Below are positions 4,979 through 9,568 of a DNA stretch of 64,000 bases, in pieces. The stretch is taken from NCBI RefSeq assembly GCF_003386795.1, contig NZ_QTUC01000001.1:1860001-1924000 (forward strand), in the 5' to 3' direction. Every line of letters starts with the position of its first letter. Position 1 is the stretch's first letter. The notes beneath the pieces were generated by a model. It made no database searches and was not told where the DNA came from. It saw nothing but the letters and a program-made list of their open reading frames with translations. Both the position numbers and the translations under genes were made by a program. The stretch comes from Thermasporomyces composti (GTDB lineage Bacteria > Actinomycetota > Actinomycetes > Propionibacteriales > Actinopolymorphaceae).

Positions 4979-5626
4979 ATGGCCGTGCTCAACCTCACTG
5001 TTGACGGAGTGCGCTACGACGATTACATAGAGGAGCGAACGCTCCTCGTTCACCTCCTGCGCGATCGCCTGGGCAAGGTGAGCACCCGAGTCGGATGCGA
5101 CACCAACGAGTGCGGCGCCTGCACAGTCCTCGTCGATGGCCGAGCGGTCCGGAGCTGCTCCATGCTCGCCCTGCAAGCCGACGGTCGTACCGTCACCACC
5201 GTCGACAGCGCGTCACACGCTGTCGACGGCCCGGTGCCCCACCAGACGCCGTCACACCAGGCTGTGCTCGAGGCCCTGGCCCAGACCTTCCGCCGGCATC
5301 GGGCGACACCGTGCGGCTTCTGTACGCCCGGCATGCTGCTCTCGGCTGTCGACCTGCTGAGCGAGTGCCCCGTGCCCACCGAGGACGAGGTCCGGGACGC
5401 GCTGGCGGGGACACGATGTCGTTGCGGGGACGAGCACACGGTCGTGCGCGCTGTCCTCAGCGCCGTCACCGAGCTCCGAGGTCTCACCCCGGCGGAGCGA
5501 TCACGCGGCACGACGTCGCGGGACGCCCCGCCACCCGACCCGAACCAGGGTGAGAGCGCCACGGACTCAGCGGCGACCGCCCGGACGGACCACACCCTCG
5601 CCGGACACCGGGGAGCCGCGTCATGA
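4979..5626 (+). CDS. (2Fe-2S)-binding small subunit, xanthine/CO dehydrogenase family
   Basis: In molybdenum hydroxylases this subunit carries electrons between the Mo site and FAD. The 215-residue product has the plant-ferredoxin cluster pattern C40-x4-C45-x2-C48-x11-C60 ([11 protein letters not shown]) and the second, helical cluster C112-x2-C115 ... C147-x-C149 ([11 protein letters not shown]). Both cluster sites are complete. The ATG at 4979 is chosen because the family begins with a short strand like [10 protein letters not shown]; an ATG at 4865 would add 38 non-family residues. A C-terminal tail of about 60 residues, rich in T/R/D/P, goes beyond the usual length. The stop overlaps the next start by four bases, so it is the first gene of a translationally coupled operon. 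Confidence 0.88.
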
Positions 5627-7998
5627 CCGGGCTCTCCGCGTCGTCCGTGACCCTGCCGGTCGCCGACGCCGAGCGGCAGTACCTCGACGCCACCCGGCGC
5701 GGCGAGGACCTCGCCCCTCCCGGGACCCTGCACCTCGCGATCCTGCGCAGCCCCTACGCCCACGCGCGACTCGCTCGCGTCGACGTCGAGGGTGCCCGCG
5801 ACTGCCCTGGTGTGGTCGCCGTCCACACCGGCGCCGAGCTCGCCGAGGAGTGGACGACGGTCCCGTTCCCCGCTGAGCCGGGCCCACCGGTCCCGGCGGA
5901 GCTGCGGGTCCCGCCCCGGCTGCCCATAGCCGTCGACACCGTCCGCTTCGTAGGGGAGCCCGTCGCGGTCGTCGCGGCGACCAGCGGATACGCCGCGGTC
6001 GACGCCCTCGACGCGATCGAGATCGACTACGAGCCGTTGCCGCCGATCCGCGACGTGGAGGAGGCGCTGGCACCGGACGCACCCTCGGTCCACGACTCTG
6101 CTCCCGGGAACCGCTGCTTCCTCCACCGCCAAGCGCACGGACACTACGAGTCCGCCCGCGAGCACGCCGACGTCGTCCTCGCCCGACAGCTGCGTCACCC
6201 GTGGCCCCTTGCCACCGACGACCCTCCACCGTCGGTCGTGGTCGACGTCGACGACGCCCACGGCACCTACACCGTCTGGTCGGACACCCGCGACCCCGAC
6301 CAGGTCCGAGACGTCCTCGCGCACATCACCGGTGTGCCCGTGACCGGTCTGCGGGTCCTCACCCCGGGACCGGTCGGCACCCGAGACCCGGCCGCAGAGC
6401 CTTACGCCGAGGACGCCGTCGCGCTGCTGCTCGCGCGGAAGCTCGGTCGCCCGACCACGTGGAGCGCGACCGGAGGCGAAGCGCGTCCCCGCGACGCCCG
6501 CCACGACGACCTCGTCCAGGAGGTCGAGATCTGTGCCCGCCGGGACGGAACCATCCTGGGCCTTCGCCTGCACCAGCTCGTCGCGGTCGGTGCCTACCTT
6601 TCGCCAGTTTCACCGCGCGGCCTGGGCTTCGCCGAGCTCGGCCCCTACCTCGTCGACGCCCACGAGCTGCGCTGCACCGGGGTCTTCACGACGACACCGC
6701 CCACGACACGCCTCGGCCCGGACACCGCGGCGGCCACGTTCGCGATCGAGCGGATCATCGACGAGCTCGCCGCCGAGCTCGGGTTGGATCCGGTCGTCCT
6801 TCGGCGGCGCAACTGGGCCGAGCCGCGGTTCGACGCGGTGACCACCCGGGCGCTGGAGCTGGTGGACTACGACGAGCTGCGCCGGCGCCGACGTGACCAA
6901 GAATCCTCCGCGGTACGGCTCGGGATCGGTCTCACGACCACGACGCGTCGGCGCCCTACCGACGCTCGCCGCCAGTCGAGTGAGCGACCCGAGGGGCCGT
7001 CGGCGTCGGTTCGGGTCCTGCCGACCGGGCGAGTCGAGGTCGTCACCGCGGCGGCGGCGTTCGGTCACGGCCACCTGGCCACCTTCGCCCGGGTCGTGGC
7101 GGACACCCTCGAGGTCCCGCTCCAGGACGTCCGGGTGGTCCCGGCGGACACGCCGCACTCACCCGCCCCCGGCTCCGCGTCCGACGCTCGCATGCTCGTC
7201 TTGGGTGGCATGGCTGTCCTCCGCGCCAGCGAGCGTGTCATCGAGGGCGCGCGGAGCGCCGCGGCACGGACGCTGGGCTGCCGGCTGGAGGAGCTGCGGT
7301 ACGGACGCGGAGCCTTCCACACGCGGCGGGCACCCCACCGGTCGGTCAGCCTGCGCGCGCTGGCCACCACCCCGCTGACCGGCCACGGCGTCGCGCCGGA
7401 CGTCGCCACCGACAAGGAGCCTGTCGACGCCGACCACACCACCGGCGACGTGCACGCCGCGCACGTCGCCGCGGTGGAGGTCGACACCGAGACCGGCGTC
7501 GTCGACGTGCTGACCTACGCCGTCGTCGACGACACCGACACGCCCCTGGGACTGACCGCCGTCCGGGACGGGGTGATCCTCGGCATCGGGCGAGCCCTCG
7601 TCGGGACGTCCGGCCAGGACGCCGAGAGCCCAGCTGACCTGCGCTGCTGCGGGCCTCCCGGCATCGTCGAGGGACCCGCGGCCACGGCCCGGCCAGCGGT
7701 TCCCGAGCCCCTCGCCGAACGCCTCGGCGGTGAGGCACCGCCGGAGGTTGGATCAGGCCGGCCAAACCCCGTCCTCCTCGAGGAAGCCGACCAGCGGCGA
7801 GCGGCGGCGTTGACGGCCGTGCCCGCCGTCGTCAACGCAGTCGCCGACGCGCTCCGTCCGCTCGGCGTGCGAGACCTCGTGCCGCCCTGCACGCCGGACC
7901 GGGTGTGGCGGGCCATCCAGGCCGCCCGGGCCGACCAGTCACCCAGCCCGGTGCCCGGCCGGGGCGAGACCGAGGGCGAGGTGGGTGACCGACCGTGA
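5623..7998 (+). CDS. Degenerate molybdopterin-binding large subunit, xanthine/CO dehydrogenase family
   Basis: The 791-residue protein aligns by eye along the length of CoxL/XdhA-type subunits: [18 protein letters not shown] near residue 35, [13 protein letters not shown] near 107, [20 protein letters not shown] near 260 and [17 protein letters not shown] near the end. The cofactor-binding motifs are gone. Where GGGFGGK is expected there is TPGPVGTR (247-254). The conserved RGAGRPE-type loop reads [10 protein letters not shown] (361-370). The serine-rich GSRS-type loop reads [10 protein letters not shown] (515-524). The C-terminal GxGE segment with the catalytic glutamate is replaced by [17 protein letters not shown] (708-724). 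It sits between intact 2Fe-2S and FAD partners with 4-bp overlaps on both sides. It may be a structural or repurposed subunit without classical hydroxylase activity. The fold assignment is firm; the activity is not. Confidence 0.8.
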
Positions 7999-8849
7999 TC
8001 CCGAGCCCGTTCGACTACCTGCGACCGAGGACCGTCGAGGAGACAGTGCAGTACCTCGACGAGGCCGGCGAGGACGCCGCGCTCCTGGCGGGCGGGCAGA
8101 GCCTGGTACCCGCGCTGCGATGCCGAGACGCCGTCCCCGCCGTCGTGGTCGACCTGAGCGAGGTCGAGGAGCTGCGTGGCATCCGGGTCGAGGACGACCA
8201 GATCGTGGTGGGTGCGATGACCACCCTGCGGCGGCTCGCCACCGACCCGATCATCGCCGAGCACGCGCCCCTGCTGGCGACCGCCGCCCGCCTCGCCGGT
8301 GACCGGCGGACCCGCACGATGGCGACGCTCGGGGGATCCTTGGCGCTGGCGGATCCGGCCGCGGACCTGCCGACCGCGGCGGTCGCGCTCGACGCCACGC
8401 TGCTGCTCGCGGGGCCGGAGGGACGGCGTACCACATCGGCGCGGTCGTTCTTCGTCGAGCCGTACACGACCGCGCTCGGTCTCGCCGACGTCCTCGTCGA
8501 GATGCGGTTCCCCACCCGCTTCGGGTGGGGCGCGCACTACACGAAGGTGTGTCGGACGACCCCGGGCTGGGCTGTGGTCGGGGTCGCCGCGTTGCTCCGT
8601 CAGGAGGACGGCGTGGTCACCGACGCCCGGGTCGTGTTCACCAACATGGGGCCGGTTCCGGTGCGCTCACGCCCGGCCGAGGAAGCCCTTCTGGGCGCGC
8701 GCCTCACCGACGCCATTGTCGGCGCGGCCGCGGACGCGGGCGCCGACGAGAGCGAGCCCGTCGACGACGCCGCTGCCACCGCCCCCTACCGGCGACAGCT
8801 GGCTCGAACCCTCACCCGCCGCGCGGTACGCGCGGCGGCCGGACGGTGA
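7995..8849 (+). CDS. FAD-binding middle subunit, CO/xanthine dehydrogenase family (CoxM-like)
   Basis: This subunit passes electrons from the 2Fe-2S protein to FAD. The GTG at 7995 overlaps the large-subunit stop by four bases. The 284-residue sequence begins [20 protein letters not shown], as family members do. It keeps both FAD pyrophosphate loops: LLAGGQSLVPALRCR near residue 31 and ATLGGSLALADPAADLP near 111. Length matches CoxM (about 285). In contrast to the large subunit, nothing obvious is missing, so the cofactor-binding half of the complex looks functional. Confidence 0.88.
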   Translation: MIPSPFDYLRPRTVEETVQYLDEAGEDAALLAGGQSLVPALRCRDAVPAVVVDLSEVEELRGIRVEDDQIVVGAMTTLRRLATDPIIAEHAPLLATAARLAGDRRTRTMATLGGSLALADPAADLPTAAVALDATLLLAGPEGRRTTSARSFFVEPYTTALGLADVLVEMRFPTRFGWGAHYTKVCRTTPGWAVVGVAALLRQEDGVVTDARVVFTNMGPVPVRSRPAEEALLGARLTDAIVGAAADAGADESEPVDDAAATAPYRRQLARTLTRRAVRAAAGR

Positions 8850-8863
8850 AGGACGAACACACG

Positions 8864-9568
8864 ATGGAGCTGGAGCACGAGTTCACTGTCCCGCTCGACG
8901 TGGCGCGAACCTGGTCCTTGCTGCGGGACCCCCGCCAGGTCTCGTACCACCTGCCAGGCGCGTGCCTGTCCAAGTCGCGGGACGACACCGTGACGGGCAC
9001 GCTCGACATCGCGATCGGCCCCCACCGCACGACCTACGTGGGCGAGGTTCGTCTTCTTGACCGGAACGAGGCGGTGCATCGGCTGGTGGTGCGTGCGCAG
9101 GGGCGTGACACCCGAGGACTCAGCACGGCGGCCGCCACGATGACCGTCACCCTCACCCCGGACGTCGCCGGTGTCGGGGCCGGCCCGCGCACGGTCGTGC
9201 ACGTCCACTCCGACTTCACCATCACCGGCCCGCCGGCCCTGCTCAGCCCGGCTGTCTTGCAAGACACCGGGACGTGGCTGGTCACCCAGTTCGCCAGCAG
9301 CGTCGCCGGCCAGGTGAGGGGACCGTCCCTCGAGGAACCGGCTCCAGCCCTCGTCACGGAGCGCTCGTGGGCACGCCCGGCGCCCCTGCGGGCCGCCCTC
9401 CTGCGGTACGGGCCATGGCTCGCCGTGGCCGTCGCCGGCGCGCTGCTGCTCCGCCGCCCGGCCCGCGCGACCACCTGGCCGAGTGCGGTCCCGCGTGGGC
9501 TCGTCGGCGCGCTCCCTCGCCGACGCGTCCCGTGGTCGCGGCTCTTCAGCCGCATCCGGACGCTCTAG
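8864..9568 (+). CDS. CoxG-like SRPBCC protein with C-terminal membrane anchor
   Basis: CoxG proteins have the START/SRPBCC lipid-binding fold and, in CO oxidisers, help tether the dehydrogenase to the membrane. The 234-residue product starts MELEHEFTVPLDVARTWSLL, then DPRQVSYHLPGA and a beta-rich body. A hydrophobic helix (PWLAVAVAGALLLRRP) lies near residue 190, followed by an arginine-rich tail. The ATG at 8864 has AAGGA nine bases upstream. A GTG at 8846 overlapping the CoxM stop is a possible alternative. It is the last gene of the cox-type operon and its presence supports a membrane-associated complex. Confidence 0.8.
   Translation: MELEHEFTVPLDVARTWSLLRDPRQVSYHLPGACLSKSRDDTVTGTLDIAIGPHRTTYVGEVRLLDRNEAVHRLVVRAQGRDTRGLSTAAATMTVTLTPDVAGVGAGPRTVVHVHSDFTITGPPALLSPAVLQDTGTWLVTQFASSVAGQVRGPSLEEPAPALVTERSWARPAPLRAALLRYGPWLAVAVAGALLLRRPARATTWPSAVPRGLVGALPRRRVPWSRLFSRIRTL

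Follow-up and report, generated by a model that had tools for sequence, protein, structure and literature searches.

An actinobacterial cox-type operon whose large subunit lacks molybdenum-site motifs and was possibly kept as a scaffold

What can a cox-type operon still do when its large subunit no longer carries the motifs of the molybdenum site? The question is raised by a locus in the window, the whole stretch of 64,000 nucleotides analysed here (positions 1860001-1924000), which lies in an actinobacterial genome of a single 4.37 Mb contig. The locus shows the form II cox-type layout, in which an S-L-M operon encodes the motifs for two [2Fe-2S] clusters and for FAD. Its genes follow the order S-L-M-CoxG-like, every one on the + strand:

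4979..5626, + strand: small subunit (S, CoxS-like) with two [2Fe-2S] domains (Pfam Fer2, Fer2_2)
5623..7998, + strand: large subunit (L, CoxL-like) without molybdenum-cofactor motifs (open reading frame, Pfam, alignments)
7995..8849, + strand: medium subunit (M, CoxM-like) with an FAD domain (Pfam FAD_binding_5, CO_deh_flav_C)
8864..9568, + strand: CoxG-like protein (SRPBCC) with a hydrophobic C-terminal stretch (Pfam COXG slightly under cut-off)

The S/L junction is an ATGA overlap and the L/M junction a GTGA overlap, in line with the ATGA-type overlaps that a preliminary description had reported within S-L-M. That description had extended the coupling to CoxG, and this part is insecure because the CoxG-like gene probably starts at ATG 8864. 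An alternative start exists at GTG 8846; the later start is favoured by the orthologue in a relative genome (G001), the closest to the window's CoxG-like protein (45% identical), which opens with MDFEHEFTVP. Upstream of the operon lie an LCP-family gene (Pfam) and a PH-domain-like gene (read from the sequence), and downstream a cation diffusion facilitator (CDF) and a phosphotransferase-like gene on the other strand (read from the sequence). None of these neighbours was recognised as a gene for molybdenum-cofactor maturation.

We examined the integrity and family membership of L. As previously described, L is full length, with 791 aa in one uninterrupted frame, no internal stop and no frameshift. 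It matched MoCoBD_1, MoCoBD_2 and Ald_Xan_dh_C (hammerhead) far over the Pfam cut-offs, and no NCBIfam equivalog reached its cut-off for L. Homology to the xanthine oxidase family was found, and the predicted fold (see below) likewise agrees with that family for the hammerhead domain and both MoCoBD domains. A sequencing or assembly artefact, with paired frameshifts hiding the motifs, is scarcely credible: one continuous frame aligned over L residues 24-772, neither the missing motif segments nor a significant family match occurred in any other frame, and nothing was found in favour of this explanation.

The active-site segments of L were then compared with those of relatives. The corresponding positions are as follows:

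6286..6300, + strand: active-site Gln segment, TQ(V/I)PH in relatives, TRDPD in L (alignment to relatives)
6373..6393, + strand: segment I, GGGFGxK in relatives, VGTRDPA in L (alignment to relatives)
6709..6732, + strand: segment II, AYRGAGRPE in relatives, RL-GPDTAA in L (alignment to relatives)
7060..7083, + strand: segment III, HGQGHETx in relatives, FGHGHLAT in L (alignment including profile alignment)
7174..7194, + strand: segment IV, DTYGSRS in relatives, SASDARM in L (alignment to relatives)
7711..7827, + strand: segment V, GVKGVGEAGTIASTP in relatives, a longer Pro/Glu-rich stretch in L (MAFFT and profile alignment)

The results showed that, of the five molybdopterin-binding segments, four are missing from L, as is the active-site Gln segment, and the replacements at the Gln segment and segments I-IV agreed between the alignment to relatives and the profile alignment. 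At the position of the GVGE Glu, the profile alignment placed ADQR, and MAFFT placed GGE (about residues 702-704) followed by about 20 unaligned residues; judging from the alignments, the catalytic Glu is probably missing from L, with the aligners disagreeing on its place. The form II motif AYRGAGR is not present in L, nor is (A/S)YRCS(F/L)R, the motif that defines form I CoxL (PMC13240472), at whose place L reads RL-GPDTAA. The preliminary description had claimed that every molybdenum-site motif was lost. This holds for the GGGFGxK, RGAGR-type and GSRS-type motifs, and for the GVGE Glu the loss is probable, not certain; the motif boundaries given earlier were slightly off with the substance unaffected, and the losses reach beyond that list to the Gln and GQGH segments.

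In the xanthine oxidase family, many contacts to the cofactor are made by the backbone and by loops, so motif loss in the sequence does not prove lost binding. An ordinary molybdenum hydroxylase with its ligands elsewhere in the L sequence would also accommodate the ambiguous position of the Glu between aligners. We nevertheless regard this explanation as very improbable, as each of the Gln, GGGFG, RGAGR, GQGH and GSRS motifs has been replaced, for the most part where the alignment is secure, and these losses are accompanied by changes on the cofactor-facing side of S (see below).

To set these replacements against the family background, we collected 144 related loci, to which the order and the class contributed 29 each, the order of the best match 6 more and a wider genome-contig scan its best 80; a few of the loci may be one organism present in two collections. 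Across these loci the core molybdenum-site motifs were kept almost without exception. Among the best 80 of the wider scan, the Gln segment, the AYRGAGR-type loop, GSRS and GVGE were present in 80/80, GGGFG in 79/80 and the GQGH pattern in 76/80. Motif loss in L is not due to chance. Searches of 1257 genomes, plus the best 80 of the wider scan, gave no other large subunit with altered motifs, and the first genome-contig scan with a single protein query returned no closer orthologue of L. Searches of the order, class, other orders and phylum, as well as an alignment-based scan, yielded motif-keeping relatives only, or nothing stronger; in plasmid records, L matches were at or below 37% identity among the matches listed. 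The identity of L to form II relatives is about 38-44%. One canonical large-subunit match, from Nonomuraea guangzhouensis (L133:4001-6280), contains a single stop codon in the aligned range, which may represent a recent pseudogene or an assembly error.

The selectivity of the loss was assessed at invariant sites, defined as positions that hardly vary among 28 canonical relatives. The active-site segments of L kept 8/33 of these sites, compared with 142/253 elsewhere (Fisher p = 7e-4), so that about 44% were lost outside the active site. The hammerhead domain was best preserved, with 22 of its 26 non-motif invariant sites kept. The loss in L is concentrated in the active site.

The partner subunits gave a different picture. 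S kept 47/66 invariant sites, among them every one of the eight cysteines of the clusters (C40, C45, C48, C60, C112, C115, C147, C149), and M kept 53/68 together with both FAD motifs, AGGQS and TxGG...ADPAAD; in these motifs, the 2Fe-2S and FAD subunits are intact, as had been proposed. Because these motifs are kept while the L segments are lost, the sequence of the electron carriers is conserved and that of the molybdenum end is not. Beside the second cluster, S carries the changes Q111P (before CGFC) and N145T, T150G, G151D and Y152E (N(L)CRCTGY loop), on the side that we take to face the cofactor in the xanthine oxidase family. S also has a low-complexity C-terminal extension of about 45-50 residues past the usual end (5471-5626, residues 165-215).

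We further analysed evolutionary rate and constraint. The end branch of L was 4.1 against a median of 0.18, about 20-fold longer, and over common taxa the query-relative distances stood to the relative-relative distances in ratios of 6.8 (L), 3.3 (S) and 2.5 (M). With all three subunits accelerated and invariant sites lost outside the active site as well, weakened constraint also fits. The complex may have lost its use and be on its way to loss, its frames open because decay is recent or slow, an explanation that we consider rather unlikely but serious. Recent decay, however, could not have produced so large a divergence, the active-site loss is selective, and all cluster cysteines and FAD motifs remain. 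In a neutral simulation, a canonical relative was recoded to local codon usage and run to about 38% identity, with 60 runs per setting. The simulated genes accumulated a mean of 10-14 stops, stop-free runs were 0/60 at each setting, and GC3 was 0.74-0.79. Neutral drift to about 40% identity would thus give about 10 or more stops and a lower GC3, and neither is seen in L, which has no stops and a GC content by codon position of 0.80/0.55/0.88, much like neighbouring genes. L accordingly displays neither the stops or frameshifts of a pseudogene nor the loss of codon-position bias at its divergence. The reading frames have thus stayed open under coding constraint. These results make long neutral decay of L very unlikely and, together with the divergence, bear out the earlier view that the gene is not in recent decay; weakened constraint is still compatible with the simulation outcome.

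The history of the locus was traced in a family sample of 8 genomes, in which the genus is represented by the window's own genome alone. Five relative genomes (G002-G006) show synteny for the LCP and CDF genes that flank the operon, and between them no cox genes were found in these genomes, but other genes. Since this gene content differs, the interval is variable in the family. By reading of the sequence, it holds TetR-like, SnoaL-like and sugar ABC-transporter-like genes in G002-G006. In G001, the CoxG-like gene (L197:373-1179, from G001:C11) stands beside a PH-domain-like gene and an LCP gene but has no S-L-M genes with it; the contig end nearby resembles an insertion-sequence transposase fragment. 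Either G001 has lost S-L-M, or the lineage of the window gained it by insertion next to CoxG. Such a history would suit a locus of low essentiality, and it is what chiefly speaks for a complex on its way out.

We next considered the predicted structure of L. An AlphaFold2 model built with 29 sequences in the alignment reached moderate confidence (mean pLDDT 69, pTM 0.63). By Foldseek and VIA-align, about 610-690 of its residues could be superposed (Z about 27-31, rmsd 6.3-7.2) on the large subunits of CO dehydrogenase and of quinoline, glyceraldehyde and aldehyde oxidoreductases, and L is thus predicted to retain the xanthine-oxidase-family fold. Stretches with pLDDT below 50 included residues 249-258, 364-366, 478-483, 509-523 and 684-719, which correspond to segments I-V, and also some other loops. 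A control model of a canonical Nonomuraea relative from the same sequence set gave pLDDT 87 and pTM 0.88 with one stretch below 50; its alignment was equally deep but held closer relatives, so part of the pLDDT gap is due to divergence. L might still be catalytic, with another cofactor or a site rebuilt in the old cavity. Its full-length retention and strongly constrained hammerhead domain would suit such a role, and the GGE may retain the catalytic Glu; against it, a conserved new motif is not recognisable from one sequence and the cavity loops are predicted at low confidence. We consider renewed catalysis distinctly unlikely.

The explanation that we favour, at a little less than an even chance, is that L stopped binding the molybdenum cofactor and was kept as the structural scaffold of a form II cox-branch S-L-M complex with a CoxG-like partner. 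In such a complex, S, L and M would still assemble, and the two [2Fe-2S] clusters and FAD could form a short electron relay. Electrons might enter from a partner or a small molecule with access to the proximal cluster from its opened side, and the other end of the relay may connect to the quinone pool through CoxG. The complex would then no longer perform molybdenum-dependent hydroxylation or CO oxidation. Genome-wide loss of cofactor synthesis was considered as a cause and rejected as unlikely, because the genome retains moaA and a canonical xanthine-dehydrogenase-type large subunit with its motifs. The idea that L duplicates an intact form II gene elsewhere in the genome was likewise rejected, only distant family members being found there. 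The idea of a repurposed complex rather than decay, for example as a ferredoxin/flavin electron-transfer unit, came from the preliminary description. The retained operon, protein and carrier motifs, the selective loss and the simulation speak for it, and electron transfer is a putative new role; no orthologue group sharing the altered motifs turned up in the searches described above. Repurposing is the better reading than loss, yet it is unproven because the evidence rests on one genome.

If the scaffold explanation is true, large subunits of the xanthine oxidase family too can be exapted as scaffolds, and the operon offers a natural test of what an Fe-S/FAD/CoxG module can do without a molybdenum centre. 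The locus also carries a warning, since domain searches label L as molybdopterin-binding although the site appears to be gone. A literature search of partial coverage, and so weak as evidence, yielded no case of a cofactor-free subunit or pseudoenzyme in the xanthine oxidase family.

Among known systems, the form II cox/CoxL-like actinobacterial hydroxylases share gene order, domains, fold and the CoxG-like companion with the window operon; what form II enzymes themselves catalyse is still under debate (PMC13240472). Unlike them, L lacks the Gln, GGGFGxK, AYRGAGRPE, GQGH and YGSRS motifs, probably lacks the GVGE Glu, and sits on a very long branch. Form I Mo-Cu CO dehydrogenase (CoxMSL; PDB 1n5w, 1ffu, 8uem) has the overall L fold and the arrangement of two [2Fe-2S] clusters, FAD and CoxG in common with the locus, whereas L lacks the YRCSFR loop and the cofactor loops, and form I is not its nearest branch. 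By its title, 1ffu is a CO dehydrogenase without the Mo-pyranopterin moiety, which indicates that cofactor-free complexes can exist in the xanthine oxidase family. Published work describes CoxG proteins as membrane anchors (PMC11962113) and as partners of Mo-CO dehydrogenase that bind menaquinone (PMC13240472); like these anchors and quinone carriers, the window protein combines an SRPBCC domain and a hydrophobic C-terminal stretch within a redox operon, but its partner complex has no recognisable electron-input site. NuoG, a molybdenum-enzyme homologue in complex I that lost the cofactor and kept the fold, has been called a unique example in the Mo/W-bisPGD family (PMC5123574). By analogy, it is possible, though we hold it with some doubt, that L as a cofactor-free scaffold for an Fe-S/FAD electron-transfer unit is an independent repeat of NuoG in the xanthine oxidase family. 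NuoG belongs to another superfamily, is ancient and widespread, and has a proven role in complex I, whereas that of L is a proposal; in both cases, a molybdenum-enzyme subunit would have been kept without its cofactor in an electron-transfer complex (PMC5123574).
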